Source: Methylocella silvestris BL2 (GTDB taxonomy: Bacteria > Pseudomonadota > Alphaproteobacteria > Rhizobiales > Beijerinckiaceae). Taken from it: a DNA stretch of 64,000 nucleotides. The stretch is taken from NCBI RefSeq assembly GCF_000021745.1, contig NC_011666.1:4057001-4121000 (forward strand), written 5' to 3'. This document shows positions 28,555 to 40,473 of this stretch, piece after piece (within the stretch, counting starts at the first letter, position 1; each line of letters opens with the position of its first letter). The notes under the pieces were generated by a model. That model was not told the DNA's origin. It ran no database searches and saw only the letters and a list, made by a program, of their open reading frames with translations. The translations under genes and the position numbers were made by a program.

Positions 28555-30516
28555 TTGATTAGGCAAAGCCGCGTCGCTCATATCGATGAAGTGCTCGGCC
28601 TCATGATGGGCCAGACTTCGGAGCGTGACAGGGTCATTCACGAATCCTGGCGCCGCTGCGTGACGGAGCACGGGCTCGATCCGATCGCCTCGCGCGACGC
28701 CTATATCCTGCCGCAGGAGCGTCTCAATGAACATCGCGACGCGATGGAAGAATTTCTGCACACGGCGCGATTCGGCCTCGAAACGCTATATCGCCAAGTG
28801 TCCTGCCTCGATTATGTGATGCTGCTGACGGACGCCAAGGGCGTCACCGTCGATTTCATGGGCGATCCGACCTATAGCGGCTATCTGCGCAAGGCGGGCC
28901 TCTATCTCGGCTCCGATTGGCACGAGGAGCTTGCAGGGACATGCGCGGTCGGCACCTGCATCGCCACCGGCGAACCCCTCATCGTGCATCAAAGCGATCA
29001 TTTTGACGCCTCGCACATCTCGCTGACCTGCACCTGCGCGCCCATCTTCGACACCAATGGCGACCTTGCCGCCGCGCTCGATATCTCGGCGCTTCATTCG
29101 CCCGAGCCCAAGCTTAGCCAGCATCTGGCGCTGCAGCTCGTGCGAAGCTTCACGCATAAGATCGAAAATGCGAATTTGCTCAATCGCTTTCGCGGCGAGT
29201 GGATTTTGAAGCTGTCGAAAGCCCAGGAATTCCTCGACATCGATCCCGAATACATCCTCGCGGTCGACGCCAACGGCTGCATCATCGGCCATAACAGCCG
29301 CACGCGAGAGCTGCTCGCCCGCGAATCCCGTCGGCTCGGCGATGAGAAGGATCGTTTCATCGGCGAACCCCTGTCGGCGTTTTTTGAATGCGACGTCTCG
29401 ACCTTGCCGCGATTCGCCCGGTTCCGCCCAAGCGATCAGCGCACCATGCGGCTTGTCAGCGGCGGCGCGATGTTGTTCGCGCAGGCGATGCCGCCGCCGC
29501 TCGCCTCTCTGCCGCGCCAGCCGGCGACGCCAGGCCCCAATCTGCCGTTGCCGCTGCGCGAAATGTTTTCCGGCGATCCGATGATGTTCGAGGCGTTGCG
29601 GCGCGCTGCCAAGATCGTCGGCACGCAAATGAGCATCCTCATCCAGGGCGAGACAGGGACCGGCAAGGAGCATCTCGCCAAGGCGCTGCACGCGGCCTCG
29701 CCCCGCGCCGACAAGCCATTCGTTGCGGTAAACTGCGCGGCGCTGCCGGAGAGCCTGATCGAGAGCGAATTGTTCGGCTACGAGGCGGGATCATTCACCG
29801 GAGCGGCGAGCAAGGGCAAGAAGGGACTGGTGCTTGGCGCCGAGGGGGGCACCCTGTTCCTCGACGAGATCGGCGACATGCCGCTGGCCTCGCAGACGCG
29901 TCTTTTGCGCGTGCTTGCCGAGCGCGAGGTGACGCCGCTCGGCAAGGTCAAGCCGATCCCGATCGACATAAGGGTGATCGCTGCGACCCACCGGGACCTC
30001 GTCGAACTCGTCAAAGCCAAGAGTTTTCGCGAGGATCTTTATTTCCGGCTCAACGGCGCTGTTCTGACTCTGCCGCCGCTGCGCAGCCGCATCGACGTCA
30101 AATGGCTGATCGAGCGTCTCTTGCAACGAGGGTCGAACCGGGATGGCGCGCGCCGCCATCTGAGCGACGCGGCCCTTGCCGCTCTCTGCGCCTATTCCTG
30201 GCCCGGCAATGTCCGCGAACTGGTCAATTGTCTCGATTACGCCAGCGCCGTCTGCTCCGAGCAGCAGATCGAGGTCGAGGATTTGCCTGAATCGATCATC
30301 AAGAGCCTCAACGGCGCCGGCCCAGCTGCGCTGGCGGCGGATCGCGCCGGAGACGAGAGTCCGCAGTCCGACGCTTTGAACGGGCTCGAGGAGGCGTTGC
30401 GCGAGCATCATTGGAACGTCTCCGCGGTCGCGCGCGCGCTTGCGGTGGATCGCTCGACGGTGCATCGGCGGATGCGGCGGCTTGGCCTTGTGCCGCCGCA
30501 AAAGCGGGATTTCTGA
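28555..30516 (+). CDS. acoR: Sigma-54-dependent activator of acetoin catabolism
   Basis: Enhancer-binding protein of 653 residues that activates the acetoin operon. Residues 60-200 form a GAF sensor domain and 225-300 a PAS-like region. The AAA+ domain has Walker A GETGTGKE (365-372), the sigma-54 contact loop GSFTGA (412-417, Ser in place of the usual Ala) and Walker B TLFLDEIG (433-440). A Fis-type HTH lies at about 615-650 (WNVSAVARALAVDRSTVHRR). There is no receiver domain, so it senses a small molecule, by analogy acetoin. Translation begins at TTG (28555) with GGGAGGA upstream. A sigma-54 promoter follows before acoX. Confidence 0.92.
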   Translation: MIRQSRVAHIDEVLGLMMGQTSERDRVIHESWRRCVTEHGLDPIASRDAYILPQERLNEHRDAMEEFLHTARFGLETLYRQVSCLDYVMLLTDAKGVTVDFMGDPTYSGYLRKAGLYLGSDWHEELAGTCAVGTCIATGEPLIVHQSDHFDASHISLTCTCAPIFDTNGDLAAALDISALHSPEPKLSQHLALQLVRSFTHKIENANLLNRFRGEWILKLSKAQEFLDIDPEYILAVDANGCIIGHNSRTRELLARESRRLGDEKDRFIGEPLSAFFECDVSTLPRFARFRPSDQRTMRLVSGGAMLFAQAMPPPLASLPRQPATPGPNLPLPLREMFSGDPMMFEALRRAAKIVGTQMSILIQGETGTGKEHLAKALHAASPRADKPFVAVNCAALPESLIESELFGYEAGSFTGAASKGKKGLVLGAEGGTLFLDEIGDMPLASQTRLLRVLAEREVTPLGKVKPIPIDIRVIAATHRDLVELVKAKSFREDLYFRLNGAVLTLPPLRSRIDVKWLIERLLQRGSNRDGARRHLSDAALAALCAYSWPGNVRELVNCLDYASAVCSEQQIEVEDLPESIIKSLNGAGPAALAADRAGDESPQSDALNGLEEALREHHWNVSAVARALAVDRSTVHRRMRRLGLVPPQKRDF

Positions 30517-30607: not shown

Positions 30608-30622
30608 TGTTGCGTCGCAACA
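30608..30622. promoter_or_regulatory. Inverted repeat, probable AcoR upstream activating site
   Basis: TGTTGCGTCGCAACA is a perfect 7+1+7 palindrome located about 165 bp upstream of the sigma-54 promoter, the usual enhancer distance. A related word TGTTGCGCCGC occurs at 30670-30680. Assignment to AcoR rests on position only. Confidence 0.6.
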
Positions 30623-30772
30623 GGGCGAAGCCCCAATCGGCAAAGCGACGTTGCGGCAGGCGCCACACCTGTTGCGCCGCCCGCCACAGGCGAGGCGGCG
30701 AAGATAAATTCATGCAACAGACAGACTTTTCTAGTTGTCTGTTTTTATTAGAGTTTGTCGTCAAGAGCCGCC

Positions 30773-30789
30773 TTGGCATCACCCTTGCT
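30773..30789 (+). promoter_or_regulatory. Sigma-54 (-24/-12) promoter of acoXABC
   Basis: TTGGCATCACCCTTGCT matches the sigma-54 consensus: GG and GC are separated by exactly 10 bp (30775-30776 and 30787-30788) within TTGGCA and TTGC. Transcription would start near 30800, about 37 bp before the acoX start. An enhancer-binding protein gene of the acetoin type lies immediately upstream. Confidence 0.82.
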
Positions 30790-30836
30790 GTTCCCTCTGC
30801 GCCCGACAACAAGCAAGCGGGATTGAGGGACAGGAT

Positions 30837-31913
30837 TTGACGCTCACCGTTGGCATCATCGCCAATCCGTTTTCGGCGCGCGACATTCGCCGCGTTGTCG
30901 CCGATGCGTCGGGCGTGCAAATCGCCGACCGCGCCAATGCGGTGCTGCGCGTGCTCGCCGGGCTTTTTGCATGCGGCGTCCGCCACGCGGTCATGATGCC
31001 GGATCGCGCCGGGTTGATGCAGCACGTGCTGCGCGGAATAGCCCGGGCGGGAAATCAAGGTCTGCAACGCTATCCGGAGGTCTCGCCTCTCGATATGCCG
31101 CTCTTCGGAACTGTCGAAGATACGCGCACGGCGGCGGCCCTGATGCGCGCGGGGGGCGCCGGGGCGATCGTCGCTCTCGGCGGCGACGGCACCCACCGCG
31201 CCGTCATATCCGCCTGCGGCGCGACCCCGATCGCGGCGATCTCGACAGGAACCAACAACGCTTACGCCGAACAATGCGAGCCGACCGTCGTCGGCCTTGC
31301 CGTCGGCCTCGCCGTAACGGGCCAACTCCCCGCCGCGCTCGCCTTTCGCGCCAACAAGCGCCTTGACGCCGTGATCGGCGGGCAGACGCATATCGCCCTC
31401 GTCGATATTGCGCTGGTCAGCGACCGCCATGTCGGCGCGAAAGCGCTGTGGCGTCCCGAAACCTTCCGCGAATTATATGTCGCTTTCGCTGATCCGACGC
31501 TGATCGGAATGTCAGCCATCGCCGGTCTGATCGAACCCGTGTCCCGGCGGGAGGCTTTCGGCCTCCAGATCCTGTTCGCCGGCGAGGGCAGGGCGGCGCG
31601 CGCGCGGCTGCGCGCCCCGATCGCTCCGGGGTTGATCGCGCCGATCGGCGTCGCCGACTGGCGCAGGATCGCGCCCGGCGAGGCGATCGTTCCGCGTCTC
31701 GAGGCGGGTTCGCTCGCCTTTGACGGAGAGCGCGAGATCGCCTTTTCACACAAGGACAAGGTTTCGATCACGCTGCGCGAGGGGGCGTTTCGCAGCGTCG
31801 ATATTGCCGCCTGCATGCGCGCCGCCGCGACACACGGCCTGTTGCGCGAAGACACGACGAACGAGGACGCCGGCGACGGACCGCTGCTGATGGCGGCGTC
31901 CGCCTCGCCATAA
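30837..31913 (+). CDS. acoX: Acetoin catabolism protein AcoX (ATP-NAD kinase-like)
   Basis: A 358-residue protein of the NAD kinase/AcoX family. The N-terminus LTVGIIANPFSARDIRRVV and the block GAIVALGGDGTHRAVISACG carry the GGDGT nucleotide motif, followed by ISTGTNNAY. The role of AcoX in acetoin breakdown is not established; it is dispensable in some bacteria. The TTG at 30837 has GAGGGACAGGA in front and matches the family start; upstream codons would overlap the sigma-54 promoter. It is the first gene of the aco operon, 17 bp before acoA. Confidence 0.88.
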   Translation: MTLTVGIIANPFSARDIRRVVADASGVQIADRANAVLRVLAGLFACGVRHAVMMPDRAGLMQHVLRGIARAGNQGLQRYPEVSPLDMPLFGTVEDTRTAAALMRAGGAGAIVALGGDGTHRAVISACGATPIAAISTGTNNAYAEQCEPTVVGLAVGLAVTGQLPAALAFRANKRLDAVIGGQTHIALVDIALVSDRHVGAKALWRPETFRELYVAFADPTLIGMSAIAGLIEPVSRREAFGLQILFAGEGRAARARLRAPIAPGLIAPIGVADWRRIAPGEAIVPRLEAGSLAFDGEREIAFSHKDKVSITLREGAFRSVDIAACMRAAATHGLLREDTTNEDAGDGPLLMAASASP

Positions 31914-31930: not shown

Positions 31931-32914
31931 ATGAGCGACAATCCCTTTCCAATCGACAAGGCCGGGCTTCTCGAAGCCTACCGCATGATGAAGACCATCC
32001 GCGAGTTCGAGGAGCGGCTGCACATCGATTTCGCCAAAGGCGACATACCCGGCTTCGTCCATCTTTATGCCGGCGAAGAGGCGGTCGCGACCGGAATCAT
32101 GATGCATCTGAATGATCGCGACCGGATCGCCTCGACCCATCGCGGACATGGGCATTGCATCGCCAAGGGCGTCGACGTTCATGGAATGATGGCCGAAATC
32201 TACGGCAAGGTGACGGGCTCGTGCCAGGGCCGCGGCGGCTCCATGCATATCGCCGATCTGTCCAAGGGCATGATGGGCGCGAACGGCATTCTTGGCGCCG
32301 GCGCGCCGCTGATCTGCGGCGCCGGCCTTGCGGCGAAGTTTCGCGGCGACGGCGGCGTTGGGATCTCCTTCTTCGGCGACGGCGCCGCGAACCAGGGCAT
32401 GGTTCTCGAAAGCATGAACCTTGCGGCGGTGTGGAACCTGCCGGTGATCTTTGTTTGCGAGAACAATGGCTACGCGGAAGCGACCTCGCGCGACTATGGA
32501 ACGGCCGTCAAATCCTATGTCGATCGCGGCGCGGGTTTCGGCATTCCCGGCGTCGTTGCGGACGGAACGGATTTCTTCGCGGTTTACGAGGTGGTCGGCG
32601 AACTCATCAAGCGCGCGCGCGAGGGCGGCGGCCCGGCGCTGCTGGAGTGCGAGGTCATCCGCTTCTTCGGCCATTTCGAGGGCGATGCGCAAACCTACAA
32701 GGCCAAGGGCGAAAACGAATACAACCGCGCCAACCGCGATTGCCTGAAAATTTTCCGCGCCAAAGTGACGGAGGCCGGCGTCGTCAGCGATGCGGAGCTC
32801 GACGCCATCGACGCCGAAGTGGCGGAGCTGATCGAGGATTCGGTCGCCAGCGCGAAAGCCGCGCCGCTGCCGTCGCCGAAAGATCTGATGTCCAACGTCT
32901 ACGTCTCGTATTGA
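31931..32914 (+). CDS. acoA: Acetoin dehydrogenase E1 alpha subunit (TPP-dependent)
   Basis: Cleaves acetoin with acoB to acetaldehyde and an acetyl group passed to the lipoyl E2. The 327-residue protein has IREFEERLHIDFAKGDIPGF, the substrate-channel block GRGGSMHIAD, and the thiamine pyrophosphate motif GDGAANQGMVLES ending in CENNGYAE. GGAGAAAG lies upstream of the ATG. The sequence is closer to AcoA than to PdhA, and the gene context with acoX and an AcoC-type E2 supports acetoin as the substrate. Confidence 0.93.
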   Translation: MSDNPFPIDKAGLLEAYRMMKTIREFEERLHIDFAKGDIPGFVHLYAGEEAVATGIMMHLNDRDRIASTHRGHGHCIAKGVDVHGMMAEIYGKVTGSCQGRGGSMHIADLSKGMMGANGILGAGAPLICGAGLAAKFRGDGGVGISFFGDGAANQGMVLESMNLAAVWNLPVIFVCENNGYAEATSRDYGTAVKSYVDRGAGFGIPGVVADGTDFFAVYEVVGELIKRAREGGGPALLECEVIRFFGHFEGDAQTYKAKGENEYNRANRDCLKIFRAKVTEAGVVSDAELDAIDAEVAELIEDSVASAKAAPLPSPKDLMSNVYVSY

Positions 32915-32934: not shown

Positions 32935-33957
32935 ATGGCTCGCAAGCTTAGCTATAAGATGGCCGTCAACGAGGCGCTCGACCTCGAAATGACGCGCGAC
33001 CCAACCGTCATTTTGATGGGCGAGGACATTGTCGGGGGCGCCGGCGCGCCCGGCGAAGACGACGCCTGGGGCGGCGTGCTCGGGGTCACCAAGGGGCTCT
33101 TCGCCAAGCACGGCGCGCGCGTCATGGACACGCCGCTGTCGGAGTCGGCCTATGTCGGCGCTGCGATAGGCGCCGCCGCCTGCGGCATGCGGCCGGTCGC
33201 CGAACTGATGTTCATCGACTTCATCGGCTGTTGCTTCGACGAGATCTTCAATCAGGCGGCGAAGTTCCGCTATATGTTCGGCGGCAAGGCTGAAACACCG
33301 GTCGTGATCCGCTGCATGATCGGGGCGGGCTATCGCGCCGCCGCGCAACATTCCCAGATGCTGACGCCGCTCGTCACCCACATTCCGGGACTGAAGGTCG
33401 TCTGCCCCTCAAACGCCTATGACGTCAAGGGACTGCTGATCCAGTCGATCCGCGACAATGATCCGGTGATCTTCTGCGAGCACAAAAATCTCTACGCGCA
33501 TGAGGTCGACGTTCCGACGGAATCCTACACGATTCCCTTCGGAGAGGCCGCGATCCCCCGCGAAGGCAAGGATGCGACGATCGTGACTTACGGGCTGATG
33601 GTGCATCGCTCGCTCGAGGCCGCCGAGAAGCTCGCCAAGGAGGGCGTCGACGTCGAGGTCATCGACCTGCGCACCCTGTCGCCGATGGACTGGGACACCG
33701 TCATCGAAAGCGTCGAGAAAACCGGCCGGCTGATCGCCGTCGACGAAGCGCACCCGCGCTGCTCGATCGCCTCCGACATTACGGCCTTCGTCGCGCAACA
33801 CGCCTTCAAGGCGCTGAAGTCGGCGCCGCAAATGGTGACCGCGCCGCATTCGCCGGTGCCGTTCTCGCCGACGCTTGAGGACATCTACATCCCGTCCGCA
33901 GAAACCATTGCGGGCGCCGTCAAGAAAACCATCGTCCAGAAGATGGTCGCAGCCTAA
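32935..33957 (+). CDS. acoB: Acetoin dehydrogenase E1 beta subunit
   Basis: Partner of AcoA in the alpha2beta2 TPP enzyme. The 340-residue sequence starts MARKLSYKMAVNEALDLEM and includes MGEDIVGGAG, PLSESAYVGAAIGAA and VIDLRTLSPMDWDTV. The conserved Glu of LMGEDI sits over the thiamine ring in this family. The start at 32935 follows AAGGAAAAACGG; the frame is open much further upstream only because it overlaps acoA in a different phase. Spacing to acoC is 12 bp. Confidence 0.94.
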   Translation: MARKLSYKMAVNEALDLEMTRDPTVILMGEDIVGGAGAPGEDDAWGGVLGVTKGLFAKHGARVMDTPLSESAYVGAAIGAAACGMRPVAELMFIDFIGCCFDEIFNQAAKFRYMFGGKAETPVVIRCMIGAGYRAAAQHSQMLTPLVTHIPGLKVVCPSNAYDVKGLLIQSIRDNDPVIFCEHKNLYAHEVDVPTESYTIPFGEAAIPREGKDATIVTYGLMVHRSLEAAEKLAKEGVDVEVIDLRTLSPMDWDTVIESVEKTGRLIAVDEAHPRCSIASDITAFVAQHAFKALKSAPQMVTAPHSPVPFSPTLEDIYIPSAETIAGAVKKTIVQKMVAA

Positions 33958-33969
33958 GGATCAAGCGTA

Positions 33970-35088
33970 ATGACCGATGAACGCATAAAGCCGTTGGTGA
34001 TGCCGAAATGGGGTCTCTCCATGGCCGAAGGCAAGGTCACGGGCTGGCTCAAGAAGCCCGGCGCCGCCATCAAGGTCGGCGACGAACTTCTCGAGGTGGA
34101 AACGGACAAAATCACCAATGTCGTCGAAGCCGGCGACGCCGGCGTCCTGCGCCGCATTCTGGGCGAGCCGGACACTATCTACCCGGTCAAGGCTTTGATC
34201 GGAGTGCTGGCCGATTCGGATGTGCCGGACGCCGAGATCGACGCCTTCGTCGCGGGCTATGTCACCCCCGCAGCCGAGGAAGGCTCGGATGAGGACGCCG
34301 GCCCGCAATATGAGTTCGCGGAGACGCCCGCCGGATCGCTCCGCTACGCCAAGCGCGGGAGCGGGCCGGAGACGATCGTTCTCGTCCACGGCTTTGGCGG
34401 CGATCTCGACAATTGGTTGTTCAACATCGACGCGCTCGCCGAACATGCGACGGTCTATGCGCTCGATCTGCCGGGACATGGTCAATCGACCAAGTCGCTC
34501 GCAGACGCCTCATTGAGCGGAATGTCGAAGGCATTGGCCGATTTTCTCGACAAACTCGGCGTTTCGGCAGCCCACCTTGTCGGTCATTCCATGGGCGGCG
34601 CGATCTGTTTGCGGACCGCGATCGATCGCCCCGACCTTGTCAAATCTCTGACGCTGATCAGCTCGGCGGGAATCGGCGAAGATATCAACATCGATTATAT
34701 CGAAAGATTCGCCGGCGCGTCCTCGCGGCGCGAGCTGAAGCCCGCGCTTGAACAGCTGTTTGAGGATCCAAATCTTGTCAGCCGGCAGTTGATCGACGAT
34801 CTGCTCAAATACAAGCGGCTCGACGGGGTCAGCGAAGCCTTGAATGCTTTGGCCAAAAGCATGTTCCCCGGCGGCAAACAGACTTCTGTGCTCGCCGACG
34901 AGGCGGCCAGGACGAAGCGCCCCGTCACCGTCATCTGGGGAGCGTCGGACAAGATCATTCCGGCTTCCCACGCGGCGACGCTGCCGGCCGGCTGGCGCGC
35001 CGAAGTGATCAATGGGGCAGGCCACATGGTTCAGATGGAGAAAGCGGCTGCTGTGAACGCGCTGATTCGTCAGGGCGTTGGCGTGTAG
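33970..35088 (+). CDS. acoC: Acetoin dehydrogenase E2, lipoyl domain fused to alpha/beta hydrolase
   Basis: Acetyl-transferring component of 372 residues. Residues 5-85 are a lipoyl domain with the lipoylated Lys47 in EVETDKITN. After an acidic linker (100-115) comes an alpha/beta-hydrolase fold: FVLVHGFGGD-type oxyanion block, nucleophile Ser207 in LVGHSMGGAI, and His in NGAGHMVQME. This hydrolase-type catalytic domain, in place of the usual chloramphenicol-acetyltransferase-like E2 domain, is typical of AcoC. No E3 (lipoamide dehydrogenase) gene follows, so E3 must be supplied from elsewhere. Confidence 0.92.
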   Translation: MTDERIKPLVMPKWGLSMAEGKVTGWLKKPGAAIKVGDELLEVETDKITNVVEAGDAGVLRRILGEPDTIYPVKALIGVLADSDVPDAEIDAFVAGYVTPAAEEGSDEDAGPQYEFAETPAGSLRYAKRGSGPETIVLVHGFGGDLDNWLFNIDALAEHATVYALDLPGHGQSTKSLADASLSGMSKALADFLDKLGVSAAHLVGHSMGGAICLRTAIDRPDLVKSLTLISSAGIGEDINIDYIERFAGASSRRELKPALEQLFEDPNLVSRQLIDDLLKYKRLDGVSEALNALAKSMFPGGKQTSVLADEAARTKRPVTVIWGASDKIIPASHAATLPAGWRAEVINGAGHMVQMEKAAAVNALIRQGVGV

Positions 35089-35480: not shown

Positions 35481-36404
35481 ATGTCGGAAAAATCATACGA
35501 AGATCTTGCTGATGATGGAGCTCATAAGAAGGTTTCAAGCGGGACCTCGGCGCTGCTCGCTGCGGCCTTCGCGGTCGGGCTCGGCGCGTCGCCGGCTCTC
35601 GCCGACAACATCACCTTCGCGGTCATCGGGCCGCATGAATATGATCTTCCGGTCGACTTCAAGCCGTTCAACGTGTTTGTGCAATATGGCGAGAACAACA
35701 CCGGTAACCGCGCCTTCGACAAATACGGAAACTCCGTTCCGGGCAGCGGGCAGAATCAGTTCGTCGGCCTGTCCAAATATGTCTACTTCTGGTGCTTTCC
35801 GAACATCACCGACATCGGCTTCGCTTATGAAGTGATCACGCCGGAAGTTGGCGTGACTGGTCCGGGCACCGGCAGCGGCGTCCGAGGCGTCGGCGACACG
35901 CTGACGGGACCCGCCATGTGGTTCAAGCCAACGCCGAACTCGACCCTTGGCGTGCAGAACTTCGTACAGGTTCCCGTGGGCATGAAGGACGTCACCAACG
36001 GCTATTGGGCCAATTACGCGAGCATCTTCTTTGACGCGCAATGGCCGATCGCCAGCCTCACCGGAAACCTTGGCGTCGTCACGCGCTCGAATCAATATCT
36101 GCCGAACGGCTCGCCGGAGGCCGTGCCCGGCACGACGTATCATTTCAACGTCCGTCTTGGCTGGGTCAACGCAACGATTTTCGAGCCGTTCCTCGCGCTC
36201 GACTGGCAGACGCAGAGCAGCGCCTATCAGGTGGAAAACGGCCTCATTCTCGCGCCCCATAGCCAAGAGACGGCGCTCGGCGCGGGCGTAATGTTCAAAT
36301 TCTCGCCGACGATGTCGCTGACGGTGCGCTACTCGCATTCGGTAGAGGGCAAGGCCGTCACCATGACCAACGCCGGCTATTTCAAACTCGCCTATGTGTG
36401 GTGA
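35481..36404 (+). CDS. Outer-membrane beta-barrel protein (phenol MetA-deg/transporter-like)
   Basis: A 307-residue exported protein that ends in a barrel-type C-terminus (FKLAYVW). An unusually long polar n-region (about 22 residues) precedes the signal core SALLAAAFAVGLGASPALA. The mature part alternates polar and hydrophobic residues and shows YLPNGSPE, FNVRLGWVNATIFEPFLAL and MFKFSPTMSLTVRYSH, as in the MetA-pathway phenol-degradation family of putative outer-membrane transporters. The ATG at 35481 follows GAGAGGGGA. It is 49 bp upstream of the PQQ dehydrogenase, so it may admit that enzyme's substrate to the periplasm. Confidence 0.8.
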   Translation: MSEKSYEDLADDGAHKKVSSGTSALLAAAFAVGLGASPALADNITFAVIGPHEYDLPVDFKPFNVFVQYGENNTGNRAFDKYGNSVPGSGQNQFVGLSKYVYFWCFPNITDIGFAYEVITPEVGVTGPGTGSGVRGVGDTLTGPAMWFKPTPNSTLGVQNFVQVPVGMKDVTNGYWANYASIFFDAQWPIASLTGNLGVVTRSNQYLPNGSPEAVPGTTYHFNVRLGWVNATIFEPFLALDWQTQSSAYQVENGLILAPHSQETALGAGVMFKFSPTMSLTVRYSHSVEGKAVTMTNAGYFKLAYVW

Positions 36405-36453: not shown

Positions 36454-38142
36454 ATGGGACATGATGTGTTGCGCCGCCTCGCGTTTGCGGGCGTCGCCAT
36501 GGCCGCGATTGTCTGCGCAGCGACTCTGCCGTCGCGCGCGGCGGATTCGCTGAGCGCCGGGAACGCCCGTCCGAACGATTGGCCGGAATATCATCGCACC
36601 TGGAACGCCTGGCGTTACAGCCCGCTGGATCAGATCAACGCCAAGAATGTCGGCAAGCTGCGCGTCGCCTGGATCCATCAGCCGGGCGATATTACCAGCG
36701 GCTTGCTGTCGACCCCGCTCGTCGCGGACGGTATTTTCTACTATGTCGCCGCCAACGACAATGTGTTCGCGTTGAATGGCGCGACAGGCGAGAAGCTGTG
36801 GCATTATCAACCAAAGCTTGCTCCGGTGGCGAGCCAGAGTTTCTACGCCTCGCAGATTCGCAATATTTCGATGGGGCATGGCTTCATCTATCTTGGCACG
36901 CTTGACGGGCGGGTGGTCGCGATCGACCAGAAGACCGGCAAGGAGGCGTGGTCCTCTGTCCCGCTGGTCGATCTCAAGAAATGCTATGGCTGTCTTTTCT
37001 CGTCGACGCCGGTCCTCGCGGGCGATGTGCTCGTCGGCGGCACGACGGGCGGCGACCAGCCGATCGCCGGCCAGATTTTCGGCGTTGACGCGCACACCGG
37101 CAAATTGCTTTGGACGTTCAAGACGACCAAGGACGATCCGAAGAGCTGGCCGGGGGATACGGGCGCAGTCGGCGGCAGCACGGCCTGGAATGTCGGCACC
37201 TATGATCCGACCACCGACACGGTGTTCATCGGGGTCGGCAACGCCGCGCCGGATTTCTATTGGAACGACCGCCACGGCGACAATCTCTATTCGGCCTCGC
37301 TCCTCGCCCTCGATCCGAAAACGGGCAAACTCAAATGGCACCGCCAGGAAGTGCCGGGCGATCACTACGACTACGACGCCTCCTATGAGGCCGTCGTCAT
37401 CGACCACGAGGGCAAGCAGCTCATCATGCATTTGAGCAAGAGCGGCTTCGTCTTCGTGATGGACAAGGAGGACGGCAAGCTTTTCAATGTGTGGCCACTT
37501 GCGGAAAACTACAATTGGGTGAAAAGCATCAACCCGAAGACGGGCGAACTTGTCGGCCAGCTTGGCGACTTTCCGCTTGATAAGGAGACGGTGCTTTGTC
37601 CCTATCTGCTTGGCGTGCGCAGCTGGAACGCGGGCGCCTACAATCCCAAGACCAAGCTCTGGTACACCAATGCGATGGAGGTCTGCCAGACCTTGGTCCC
37701 GGCCAAGCAGGACGTCTCCAAGATCGGCATCGCCGGGCTCTATCTCGGCGTTTCGAAGCTTGAGGCGGTCGCGCCGCCGAACGCTCCGGCAAGCGCAAGG
37801 CTGGACGCCCGCGATCCGCTGACCGGCAAGCTGAAATGGAGCGTGCCCTATTCGATCCCGGGCCTTGGCGGCGTGCTGACCACAGCAGGCGGCCTTGTGT
37901 TCAACGGCGATCCGCAAGGGCTGGTGCACGCCTATGATGCGGAGACCGGCAAGGATCTGTGGCGCTTCAACGTCGGGTCGGGCGTGCGCGCAGGCATCAT
38001 CAGCTATGCCGTCGACGGCAAGCAATATATCTCCGTGCCGGCTGGGTGGGGATCGCTGGCGCCGGGCTTCATGGCGAGCGCCTTCCCGGATGTGAGCAAG
38101 CTGCAAGGCGGCGCCGCCATCGTGACGTTCGTGCTGGAATAA
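36454..38142 (+). CDS. Divergent PQQ-dependent alcohol dehydrogenase
   Basis: Periplasmic quinoprotein of 562 residues with a cleavable signal (residues 1-30, SRAA/D). The eight-bladed propeller carries repeated W-motifs such as LGTLDGRVVAIDQKTGKEAW and DPKTGKLKWHRQ. Candidate cofactor residues are Asn263 (VGNAAPDF), Trp245, and catalytic Asp306. Asp308, two residues on, gives a DYD motif like that of lanthanide-dependent XoxF/PedH enzymes. Two features are odd: the vicinal Cys-Cys pair expected near residue 130 is Phe-Tyr, and the metal-binding Glu region reads GGDQP (Asp201). The ATG at 36454 follows AAGGAGAAAG. A cytochrome c and a XoxJ-like gene follow, as in xoxFGJ. The substrate is unknown. 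Confidence 0.88.
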   Translation: MGHDVLRRLAFAGVAMAAIVCAATLPSRAADSLSAGNARPNDWPEYHRTWNAWRYSPLDQINAKNVGKLRVAWIHQPGDITSGLLSTPLVADGIFYYVAANDNVFALNGATGEKLWHYQPKLAPVASQSFYASQIRNISMGHGFIYLGTLDGRVVAIDQKTGKEAWSSVPLVDLKKCYGCLFSSTPVLAGDVLVGGTTGGDQPIAGQIFGVDAHTGKLLWTFKTTKDDPKSWPGDTGAVGGSTAWNVGTYDPTTDTVFIGVGNAAPDFYWNDRHGDNLYSASLLALDPKTGKLKWHRQEVPGDHYDYDASYEAVVIDHEGKQLIMHLSKSGFVFVMDKEDGKLFNVWPLAENYNWVKSINPKTGELVGQLGDFPLDKETVLCPYLLGVRSWNAGAYNPKTKLWYTNAMEVCQTLVPAKQDVSKIGIAGLYLGVSKLEAVAPPNAPASARLDARDPLTGKLKWSVPYSIPGLGGVLTTAGGLVFNGDPQGLVHAYDAETGKDLWRFNVGSGVRAGIISYAVDGKQYISVPAGWGSLAPGFMASAFPDVSKLQGGAAIVTFVLE

Positions 38143-38306: not shown

Positions 38307-38705
38307 ATGATTGATTGCGTCTACAGGCGCGGTCTTAACGCTGGCGCGGGGCTTTTCTTTGCCGTCACAGGCTGTCTCGGCGCCGCGACGCTCTGGGCGG
38401 AAGAGAGCGAACCGAAGCCGCCGTTCGATCTTGCCGATCCCGCAATCGTCGATGAAGGCCGCGTTCAATTCGCGCAGACCTGCGTCTATTGTCACGGCAA
38501 TGCCGGCAGCGGCGGCAAGGCGGGCCCGATCGCCGGCCGCACGGACCTGACCGAAGACTATCTGTTTACGACGATTTCGAATGGCAAGAGGGCCGGCTCC
38601 CTGGTCATGCCGACGTGGAAGGATTCCCTTGATGAGCCGACGATTTGGAAGCTTGTCGCCTATGTCGTGTCTTTGCAGGCAAAGCCCGAGGCAGCGGCGA
38701 AGTAA
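38307..38705 (+). CDS. c-type cytochrome, probable electron acceptor of the quinoprotein
   Basis: A 132-residue monohaem cytochrome c. An N-terminal signal (residues 1-31, ending LWA) precedes the haem-binding CVYCH motif near residue 59. The axial Met is probably in SLVMPTWKD. The size and the order behind the dehydrogenase match XoxG/MxaG-type acceptors, although overall similarity to those is weak by eye. AAGAGGAG lies upstream of the ATG. Its end overlaps the next gene. Confidence 0.88.
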   Translation: MIDCVYRRGLNAGAGLFFAVTGCLGAATLWAEESEPKPPFDLADPAIVDEGRVQFAQTCVYCHGNAGSGGKAGPIAGRTDLTEDYLFTTISNGKRAGSLVMPTWKDSLDEPTIWKLVAYVVSLQAKPEAAAK

Positions 38706-39495
38706 GCTGCTCGCCGGCATCGTGGCTGCCGCGTTCTGCGTTTTCGCCGGTCCGTCTTTCGCCCGGCCGCTCGAAGACATATTGAGTTCGAAAAGCCTTG
38801 AGATCTGCGTTCAGGAAGACAACGCGCCGTTCTCCAGCGAGCGTCCGAAGCCTGCCGGCGTCTTCATCGATCTTGGCGACGCAATCGGCAAGCGTCTCGG
38901 GGTCGAGGTAAAATACACTTGGCTGTTTTCGGCGGAATACATCCGCAAGACCGGCTGCGATCTCATTCCGGCCGTCGCGCAGATCGAGGGCGACGATCCG
39001 TTGCGGCAGACCATTCCCTATATGGAGGTGCGCTCCGTCCTTGCCGTGGCCAGGGATCATCCGCCGATCGGCGACCTCTCCGAATTGCGCGACGGCCATA
39101 TTGCGGTGCTCGCTACATCCTGGGCGAGGCATGTGCTGAACGGCGAAGGATACAATCTCTGGGTGCGCTTCCTCACCAATGACGAGATTCTCGATGCGGT
39201 GGCGAAAGGCGACGCGGACGCGGGCGTCGTTCCGCTTTTCGCGTTCCAAACGCGCTTGCGCGAAGATCCAGCCTTGCCGCTGCGGGTCGAGGAGGCGGTG
39301 AAGCTCGATCCGAGCTTCGACTATCCGGCCTCGATGGGTCTTCGGCGCGCCGACAATGCTGCGGTCGATCGGATCGACGACATTCTACGGGAGATGATGC
39401 GGGACGGACGCATCGCCGAGATTTTTGCCCGCTACGGCCTCAGTTACGAGCCGCCGCAATCAATCCCCGTCGCCGAAAAGGCGCGGCGCGACTAG
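38662..39495 (+). CDS. MxaJ/XoxJ-like periplasmic solute-binding protein
   Basis: A 277-residue family 3 solute-binding-fold protein. A twin-basic signal region (RQRRSKLLAGIVAAAFCVFA, cleaved after SFA) is followed by LEICVQEDNAPFSSERP and GVFIDLGDAIGKRLGVEVKY. The order dehydrogenase, cytochrome, binding protein equals xoxF-G-J or mxaF-J-G, whose J protein is thought to assist enzyme maturation. No ABC permease is nearby, supporting that role over transport. I chose the ATG at 38662, overlapping the cytochrome gene by 44 bp; the ATG at 38632 is an equal alternative. Confidence 0.8.
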   Translation: MSCLCRQSPRQRRSKLLAGIVAAAFCVFAGPSFARPLEDILSSKSLEICVQEDNAPFSSERPKPAGVFIDLGDAIGKRLGVEVKYTWLFSAEYIRKTGCDLIPAVAQIEGDDPLRQTIPYMEVRSVLAVARDHPPIGDLSELRDGHIAVLATSWARHVLNGEGYNLWVRFLTNDEILDAVAKGDADAGVVPLFAFQTRLREDPALPLRVEEAVKLDPSFDYPASMGLRRADNAAVDRIDDILREMMRDGRIAEIFARYGLSYEPPQSIPVAEKARRD

Positions 39496-39633
39496 CGCTG
39501 AACATTGGCGCGCTTCCGCTTTTCCGGGGGCGCAATCAAAACGTCCAAAGCCAATTGCCCATCCGCTGCGAACGCGCCATAGGATATGCGCGCGGCGCGA
39601 CCGCTGCCGGGAAGGCAGGGCGAGAGGGCGGGA

Positions 39634-40473
39634 ATGGACGATATCCACTATCGCGAATACAAAATTCTGCTGCGGCCGGAGCGCTTCTTCAACCCGACCC
39701 AGTTCGAGGTCTATTGGAAGAAGCTTTGCGCGGTCGCTGAACTCCACAAAGTCGGCGCGGTGACGAACAAGGACGCGTTTCACCGCCATGTGCGGGAAGT
39801 GCTGTTCTACGACACCGAGACTTGCGACCTTTATCGAAACGCTTTCATCCTGCGCAAGCGCACCTTTTACACAGATGGCTGGCCAGATCCGGAGCATGAG
39901 CTCACGTTCAAATTTCGCCACGCTGACATGAAGACCGCCGCGGACGTCGACGTGACCCCCTATATGGAGGCCAATGCCGCCATCAAATTCAAGGAAGAGG
40001 TCCTGCCTCTGAAGGATCAGGTTGGCGGCATGCGCAGCCTCTATTCGCACAATTGCGTGCTGATGACTCCGGCGCTCGAGATCAACCAGGGGCTGGAGCA
40101 CATCGCGGCGGTGTTCCCCTGCATCGGCCGCCTGACCGGCCCCTCCGGAAATGCGAAGGTCAGCCTCGTCAACAACCTTCCCGTGCAGGAGGTGCAGGTC
40201 AATGTCGGATCCTTCGACTTCGGCCATGGCCTCGAAGCCAAGGCCACCATCGCGATCTGGCGTAACCGCGCCACGGAAACATCGCTCATCGGCGAGTTCG
40301 CGTTTCAGGTGAAGTTCGACAATTATGACGCCCTGCATATAAAGGCCAAGGCGCGTTCGGAAGACTTCTTCAAGGATGTTCAGACGAGAGCCCCGGATTG
40401 GGTGGCGCTCGGCGCGACCAAGACCGCGGTGGTCTATGGCCTCGGCCATAAAGACGCGTGCGGGCGCGAATGA
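39634..40473 (+). CDS. Unknown protein with CYTH/VTC-like features
   Basis: A 279-residue cytoplasmic protein that I cannot assign firmly. Its start HYREYKILLRPERF, the block FYDTETCDLYRNAFILRKR and ELTFKFRH resemble the ordered motifs of CYTH/VTC triphosphate-tunnel proteins (acidic-x-acidic-x-Lys, then DT..LY..G..LR.R, then LT.K.R). If so it would bind triphosphate or polyphosphate with divalent metal. GAGAGGGCGGGA precedes the ATG at 39634. Its stop overlaps the chromate transporter start by 4 bp, so the two are cotranscribed. Confidence 0.65.
   Translation: MDDIHYREYKILLRPERFFNPTQFEVYWKKLCAVAELHKVGAVTNKDAFHRHVREVLFYDTETCDLYRNAFILRKRTFYTDGWPDPEHELTFKFRHADMKTAADVDVTPYMEANAAIKFKEEVLPLKDQVGGMRSLYSHNCVLMTPALEINQGLEHIAAVFPCIGRLTGPSGNAKVSLVNNLPVQEVQVNVGSFDFGHGLEAKATIAIWRNRATETSLIGEFAFQVKFDNYDALHIKAKARSEDFFKDVQTRAPDWVALGATKTAVVYGLGHKDACGRE

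Follow-up and report, generated by a model that had tools for sequence, protein, structure and literature searches.

A lanthanide-type PQQ dehydrogenase without a vicinal disulfide beside the acetoin dehydrogenase genes of Methylocella silvestris BL2

Introduction

A stretch of 64,000 nucleotides of the Methylocella silvestris BL2 genome (contig NC_011666.1, positions 4,057,001 to 4,121,000; hereafter the window) contains a gene for a PQQ dehydrogenase which has the second aspartate of the lanthanide-dependent enzymes and lacks the vicinal cysteine pair. To which branch of the PQQ dehydrogenases does this enzyme belong, and what could it oxidise? The biochemically confirmed lanthanide enzymes are described as methanol dehydrogenases and alcohol dehydrogenases of the ethanol type (2b), and in ocean metagenomes 14 of 17 PQQ dehydrogenase families are reported to have D-x-D as their predominant motif (PMC11996626). 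The disulfide over the PQQ has been linked to electron transfer (PMC8546591, PMC12997753), and PQQ alcohol dehydrogenases without the Cys-Cys pair were noted earlier (PMC8561711). A first-pass annotation of the window had claimed that the enzyme does not fit MxaF, XoxF or ExaF and may define a separate clade.

Results

Identity of the gene

The reading frame 36454-38142 (+) is free of internal stops, a likely ribosome-binding site (AAAGGAGAAAGAAAATG) is located 5' of it, and the N-terminus of the protein resembles a Sec signal sequence as judged by eye. At E<=0.001 the genome, a single contig of 4,305,430 bases, contains PQQ dehydrogenases at seven places, and seven tags have been published for strain BL2: Msil_0471, 1587, 2260, 2867, 3149, 3387, and 3733 (PMC9291206). 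Because the order and the spacing of the seven places fit the seven tags, the gene is almost certainly Msil_3733. In that publication Msil_3733 is a "group 9" PQQ alcohol dehydrogenase which carries the lanthanide aspartate and has no assigned function (PMC9291206). The gene and its lanthanide aspartate are already published, and it is the acetoin gene context described below that is new.

The label Keltjens group 9 was published for Msil_3733 together with Msil_2867 (PMC9291206) and seems to join two unlike proteins. Msil_2867, which by inference is located at L002:1426-3324, is 31% identical to the window enzyme and differs from it in having the Cys-Cys pair and a Gly at the position of the catalytic Asp (it reads W-G-Y-D). 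The protein contains long insertions and is found on a very long branch of the tree; judged from its sequence it may lack activity or work in another way.

The 562-residue protein has a Pfam PQQ match. With NCBIfam TIGR03075 (PQQ methanol/ethanol dehydrogenase subfamily) it reached 423.1 bits, below the cut-off of 480.05, and with TIGR04528 (acido-empty-quinoprotein) 317 bits, below the cut-off of 650. An AlphaFold2 model calculated from a 50-row alignment had a mean pLDDT of 89.4 and a pTM of 0.89; its best match in the PDB was the lanthanide-dependent PedH (6zcw; TM 0.87, 30% identity). The PDB sequence matches were alcohol and methanol dehydrogenases, with 1kv9 and 1kb0 among the best three.

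Table 1. Features of the dehydrogenase locus (positions within the window)
Feature	Position	Strand	Remark
acoR-like sigma-54-dependent activator	28555..30516	+	Name based on family and position; score passes no equivalog cut-off
acoX	30735..31913	+	Start uncertain; NCBIfam gave no match at 1e-60; name taken from gene order and from homologues in other aco clusters
Sigma-54 -24/-12 promoter match TGGCATCACCCTTGCT	30774..30789	+	Perfect match; upstream of acoX
acoA, acetoin dehydrogenase E1 alpha	31931..32914	+	E1-alpha family; named by operon
acoB, acetoin dehydrogenase E1 beta	32935..33957	+	E1-beta family; named by operon
acoC, acetoin dehydrogenase E2	33970..35088	+	NF011457, 496.5 bits (equivalog cut-off 307)
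Outer-membrane channel-like protein	35481..36404	+	Pfam PF13557 (Phenol_MetA_deg)
PQQ dehydrogenase, 562 aa	36454..38142	+	Signal-like N-terminus; lanthanide-type D306-Y-D308, no vicinal Cys-Cys
Phe130-Tyr131	36841..36846	+	Aligned on the vicinal Cys-Cys of XoxF, MxaF, and PedH
Cys177-x-x-Cys180	36982..36993	+	Directly N-terminal to the Ser/Thr predicted to contact PQQ; found in 22 of the 31 Phe-Tyr rows
Asp201 (in GGDQP)	37054..37056	+	Aligned on the metal-binding Glu
Asn263	37240..37242	+	Aligned on the metal Asn ligand
Asp306-Tyr307-Asp308	37369..37377	+	Asp306 on the catalytic Asp, Asp308 on the lanthanide Asp of XoxF/PedH
Cytochrome c (CVYCH)	38307..38705	+	Likely electron acceptor of the dehydrogenase
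XoxJ/MoxJ-like periplasmic binding protein	38581..39495	+	Start uncertain; PF00497; TIGR03871 E=1.1e-12, far under the cut-off (48 vs 212 bits)

Residues of the active site

The enzyme was aligned with the MxaF and XoxF paralogues of its own genome. Segments of PedH, of XoxF, and of two quinohemoprotein alcohol dehydrogenases were added from the PDB. The first-pass annotation had stated that a Phe-Tyr pair takes the place of the vicinal cysteines, that the DYD motif of the 562-residue protein provides the lanthanide-marking second Asp, and that the region of the metal-binding Glu reads GGDQP. All three readings were borne out by the alignment (Table 1), and the concern that Asp308 might lie away from the metal was removed, as it aligns with the lanthanide ligand. 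The replacement of Glu by Asp at position 201 corresponds to a shorter metal ligand. Lys329 sits where the methanol dehydrogenases and PedH carry Arg, and Cys382 and Cys411 have their counterpart in a Cys pair of the methanol dehydrogenases. D306, N263, R136, W245, N392, and K329, which are invariant in all 50 proteins of the 50-row alignment, fall on catalytic, metal, and PQQ-contact positions. In the XoxF of SolV the active-site positions are C104, C105, E172, N256, D299, Y300, and D301 (PMC8561711).

The pattern is not the result of a sequencing accident, since the residues are kept across the 31 homologues with the Phe-Tyr pair (Phe-Tyr rows): the pair itself, D201, N263, and D306 are each present in 31 of 31 rows and D308 in 30. 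The one exception, L032, reads DYG, possibly by error because L032 is a MAG.

A Cys pair elsewhere around the PQQ had been named as an observation that would speak against the unusual site. The motif Cys177-x-x-Cys180 is such a candidate on account of its position. As it is missing from nine of the 31 Phe-Tyr rows, it is rejected as a general substitute for the vicinal disulfide; it may matter in the window enzyme's own branch.

Comparison with the known enzymes gave a graded picture. XoxF1, XoxF3, and XoxF5 of the same genome (28-31% identity) share the D-x-D motif and the metal Asn with the window enzyme but have Cys-Cys, Glu, and Arg at the three other positions. PedH of P. putida KT2440, a lanthanide PQQ alcohol dehydrogenase of type 2b, is likewise a D-x-D enzyme and the best structural match, whereas it has the Cys-Cys pair, Glu as metal ligand, and Arg at position 329. 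Type 2b (PedH/ExaF), represented in this comparison by PedH, combines D-x-D with Cys-Cys while the window enzyme has D-x-D only. The quinohemoprotein alcohol dehydrogenases 1kv9 and 1kb0 resemble the window enzyme in Lys329 and differ from it in their Cys-Cys pair and their D-x-T motif of the calcium type. Quinohemoprotein alcohol dehydrogenases carry a fused heme domain. MxaF of the same genome reads DFA, the D-x-A calcium motif, in contrast to DYD in the window enzyme.

A separate branch of PQQ dehydrogenases

Homologues were drawn by similarity to the window gene, mostly in one scan with two peptide patterns, and because of this the uneven sample says nothing on PQQ dehydrogenases at large. 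The alignment consisted of 99 rows after two short L033 reading frames and the duplicates L001 and L008 had been left out; L014 and L029 are duplicate rows as well, being identical across their last 540 residues. The Cys-Cys pair is absent in 85 of the 99 homologues, hereafter the wider group, and D-x-D is found in 84 of these 85. At position 201 the wider group has Asp in 53 rows and Glu in 32. It is made up of a Phe-Tyr type (31 rows), Leu/Val/Ile types (12), a Thr-His type (27), and a mostly acidobacterial type (15). The Leu/Val/Ile rows split into two groups in the tree, and L092 and L093 of the Thr-His set also read Phe-Tyr. The Thr-His type takes in a plasmid of Rhodococcus qingshengii (L010:11941-16183), on which the dehydrogenase is accompanied by a cytochrome c, a binding protein, and a TonB-receptor plug domain. 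This set is odd for a Gram-positive organism and is suggestive of gene transfer.

A tree was calculated from 74 rows, i.e. 70 of the 99 homologues and four reference segments, with SH-aLRT as the sole support measure. Most of the 29 rows outside the tree were near-duplicates, the others being L090_2 and L094_2, which are partial or odd paralogues; all 29 were assigned to their groups by motif and identity. Support was 98 for the wider group (58 rows), 100 for the Phe-Tyr clade (24 rows), and 100 for the clade of MxaF and XoxF (6 rows); some inner forks are open. The Phe-Tyr branch stands apart from MxaF, XoxF, and PedH, and the window enzyme belongs to it by the lack of Cys-Cys, D-x-D, the Phe-Tyr pair, GGD, and its position in the tree. 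The tree that the first-pass annotation had proposed, with MxaF, XoxF, and PedH included, therefore yielded a well-supported separate clade. The claim of a misfit holds in this respect, with PedH standing in for the ExaF type. Two elements of the claimed combination are less particular: the D-x-D motif had already been published with the group 9 label, and the loss of Cys-Cys marks the whole wider group.

The Phe-Tyr branch is rare. At E<=1e-120 members were detected in three of 60 genomes (the BL2 genome and two of 14 congeners), and at E<=1e-130 in four of 398 genomes of the phylum (the BL2 genome and three with 45-47% identity). Within the clade Alpha-, Beta-, and Gammaproteobacteria are intermixed; this, together with the presence of the gene in just two of 14 congeners, suggests gene transfer of the Phe-Tyr dehydrogenase.

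The dehydrogenase adjoins an acetoin dehydrogenase operon

The gene order in the window is acoR, acoX, acoA, acoB, acoC, the PF13557 channel gene, the dehydrogenase gene, the cytochrome c gene, and the XoxJ-like gene. An AcoC equivalog, E1 alpha and beta subunits, AcoX, and a sigma-54 activator in this order make up an acetoin dehydrogenase operon; AcoC is the one protein named by an aco-specific model, the others being named by family and order. A 295-aa reading frame (39586-40473) follows 3' of the binding protein gene. By BLAST against the reading frames of the compared loci it was found in the window alone, and a 280-aa part of it gave no match in Pfam or NCBIfam. XoxF is flanked by genes for a cytochrome c and XoxJ (PMC9291206), as the window dehydrogenase is by a cytochrome c gene and the XoxJ-like gene, and the ped cluster resembles the window locus in its PedF/PedG-type partners (PMC12997753).

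We compared the neighbourhood within 9 kb of the dehydrogenase at 29 Phe-Tyr loci and 54 sister loci, leaving out L013 and L014 (4.7-kb loci). An E1 protein at least 60% identical to AcoA/B is encoded at 8 of the 29 Phe-Tyr loci (7 of 28 when the window is left out) vs none of the 54 sister loci, and any E1 homologue at 14 of 29 vs none of 54 (Fisher p=1e-4 and p=3e-8, respectively, with related loci treated as independent). When the count was restricted to loci flanked by 10 kb or more, the figures were 8 of 27 and 14 of 27 for the Phe-Tyr loci and 0 of 42 for the sister loci. At the other 15 of the 29 Phe-Tyr loci, some of them on short contigs, no E1 homologue occurs within 9 kb.

A search for acoC was carried out in 27 Phe-Tyr genomes, excluding two Skermanella plasmids and the BL2 genome; G002 and G449 are apparently one genome. 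At E<=1e-60 acoC was detected in 11 of the 27, with no match in the other 16. Ten of these 11 genomes have it close to the dehydrogenase gene, either within 9 kb or at a distance of about 11 kb (L030/L099, Actibacterium). The exception is Skermanella aerolata, where acoC must be situated elsewhere because its position exceeds the size of the contig bearing the dehydrogenase gene. The arrangement differs between lineages: the dehydrogenase gene follows acoC on the same strand in Methylocella, is divergent from the aco genes in L032 and L037, is placed between acoR and acoX in L036 and L044, and precedes acoR-acoABC in L031 and L034. As the arrangements vary in this way, the aco genes and the dehydrogenase gene are not one inherited block.

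Among the other neighbours a cytochrome c homologue is present within 9 kb at 28 of the 29 Phe-Tyr loci, adjoining the dehydrogenase gene in the gene orders compared. A XoxJ-like homologue is found at 20 of 29; since it is absent at the other nine, and each of the six aco-bearing loci that do not come from Methylocella (L031, L032, L034, L036, L037, L044) is among these, it is no fixed part of the set. A channel homologue is near the dehydrogenase at 4 of 29 loci. BLAST homologues occur in L029, L034, and L037, of which the L037 protein has no Pfam match, and L032 has a PF13557 protein near its dehydrogenase.

A second module was found beside some Phe-Tyr dehydrogenases. It consists of E1 alpha and beta subunits (about 40-48% identical to AcoAB), an E2, a GMC oxidoreductase, and a Gluconate_2-dh3-like protein, and occurs in Massilia, Marinobacterium, Enterovibrio, and one Azoarcus locus (L028:2620-8731, L027:14392-19677, L015-L017, L031, L022, L025, and L057; partial in L022 and L025). 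The Azoarcus locus, L031, has both this module and AcoABC. As a second E1/E2 type and a GMC oxidoreductase adjoin these dehydrogenases, other diols or ketols are likely to be the substrates there.

Some loci showed further peculiarities. In L032:8974-14587 the DYG Phe-Tyr dehydrogenase is located about 2 kb from a D-x-D dehydrogenase of the Cys-Cys type that adjoins acoRXABC; with DYG as the calcium type, the two resemble a calcium/lanthanide pair. A second PQQ dehydrogenase is also present in L044, L022, and L035. On the Skermanella plasmids (L009:14980-16937, L011:11003-12975) the genes for the dehydrogenase, a cytochrome c, and a binding protein are followed by those for a PAS-domain protein and a fumarate hydratase.

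Putative sigma-54 sites

The perfect sigma-54 promoter match upstream of acoX (Table 1) recurs at the same place with one mismatch in M. tundrae and another congener. In the roughly 600 bp upstream of the dehydrogenase gene, matches with at most one mismatch were found at 10 of 31 Phe-Tyr loci, six of them perfect, where shuffled sequences lead to an expectation of 0.18; the same scan gave 3 of 62 at other loci (0.62 expected). Neither the window nor its Methylocella relatives belong to these ten, and four aco-bearing loci (L031, L034, L036, and L037) are likewise missing from them. A promoter of this kind was also sought between acoC and the dehydrogenase gene in the window, and none was found, so that co-transcription would rest on read-through over about 390 bp.

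A perfect dyad, TGTTGCGTCGCAACA (TGTTGC-N3-GCAACA, 30608-30622), is located upstream of acoX and is possibly a binding site of AcoR. No perfect copy was found at the other Phe-Tyr loci. A shared AcoR dyad was considered and rejected: with up to two mismatches, 24 matches occurred in 602 kb of Phe-Tyr loci vs 13 in one shuffle, and other loci gave the same rate (32 matches in 799 kb).

Discussion

The dehydrogenase of the window is a periplasmic PQQ enzyme of a branch that has the lanthanide Asp and lacks the disulfide above the cofactor. The adjacent acetoin operon is the best clue to its function, and the recurrent place of such dehydrogenases beside genes of acetoin degradation suggests that the enzyme produces acetoin by oxidising 2,3-butanediol or a diol like it. 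A precedent has been described in P. putida, where PedE (calcium) and PedH (lanthanum) convert (2S,3S)-2,3-butanediol to acetoin, which is passed on to acetoin dehydrogenase (PMC8427195). Among the matches listed, judged by title and the start of the abstract, no paper joined the Phe-Tyr clade to acetoin; these matches leave subscription journals mostly uncovered.

On balance we lean, if only slightly, towards a lanthanide-type, disulfide-free periplasmic PQQ alcohol dehydrogenase for which 2,3-butanediol or a similar vicinal diol is the probable substrate and acetoin the product, working with AcoABC in a set under the control of AcoR. The diol would be oxidised in the periplasm by means of PQQ and a lanthanide, and the electrons would pass to the cytochrome c encoded next to the dehydrogenase. 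Acetoin would then be taken up into the cell and cleaved by AcoABC to acetyl-CoA and acetaldehyde, while the sigma-54 activator AcoR would control the aco genes and the dehydrogenase set. The electron route must differ in detail from that of known enzymes, since the disulfide reported for electron transfer is missing. The predicted fold, the aligned residues, the clade, the neighbours, and the promoter matches are results of the comparisons, and what we propose on lanthanide binding, substrate, electron route, and co-regulation is inference.

We considered three alternatives. The enzyme could be a general quinoprotein for short-chain alcohols and diols with the breadth of PedH, for which 2,3-butanediol is one of several substrates and whose place beside the aco genes reflects the volatile alcohols common to acetoin and acetaldehyde catabolism. 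PedE and PedH are indeed described as broad and yet serve 2,3-butanediol (PMC8427195), and TPP-type complexes of two kinds are found beside Phe-Tyr dehydrogenases, with neither of them within 9 kb at the 15 loci mentioned. However, at none of the 54 sister loci does the PQQ dehydrogenase lie near E1 genes. We regard this alternative as rather unlikely. A similar but slightly lower standing is given to a calcium enzyme, in which the shorter Asp201 ligand and the changed cavity hold calcium in spite of Asp308, with no dependence on lanthanides. The exchange of Glu for Asp at the metal ligand throughout the Phe-Tyr rows and the loss of Asp308 in L032 would agree with calcium, whereas D-x-D is kept almost without exception in the wider group, the additional Asp has been reported to be indispensable to lanthanide enzymes (PMC8546591; PMC11996626), and a gene weakly like XoxJ adjoins the dehydrogenase gene.

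An empty or sensory quinoprotein that does not work as an alcohol dehydrogenase is very improbable. The scores below the cut-off of TIGR03075 and the match, itself below the cut-off, to TIGR04528 might be taken as signs of it, but the catalytic Asp, the metal Asn, the Arg, Trp, and Asn at the PQQ positions, and the Lys are invariant in the 50 aligned proteins, and a cytochrome c homologue accompanies nearly all Phe-Tyr dehydrogenases. The oxidation of a vicinal diol to acetoin is the function preferred here for the window enzyme.

Its extension to the whole Phe-Tyr clade, as lanthanide-dependent, disulfide-free dehydrogenases of 2,3-butanediol or vicinal diols which were spread among Alpha-, Beta-, and Gammaproteobacteria by gene transfer, is put forward tentatively and with some doubt. 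The substrate may vary among the members, because those from Massilia and marine bacteria carry the different E1/E2 complex with the GMC oxidoreductase.

For M. silvestris, a model facultative methanotroph, the gene context provides a concrete candidate substrate for an enzyme that was published with no function. If the proposal is true, the Phe-Tyr clade ties rare-earth catalysis to acetoin metabolism, and lanthanide quinoproteins are able to pass electrons to cytochrome c without a vicinal disulfide. A natural D-x-D clade that lacks the disulfide would test whether the disulfide is needed.
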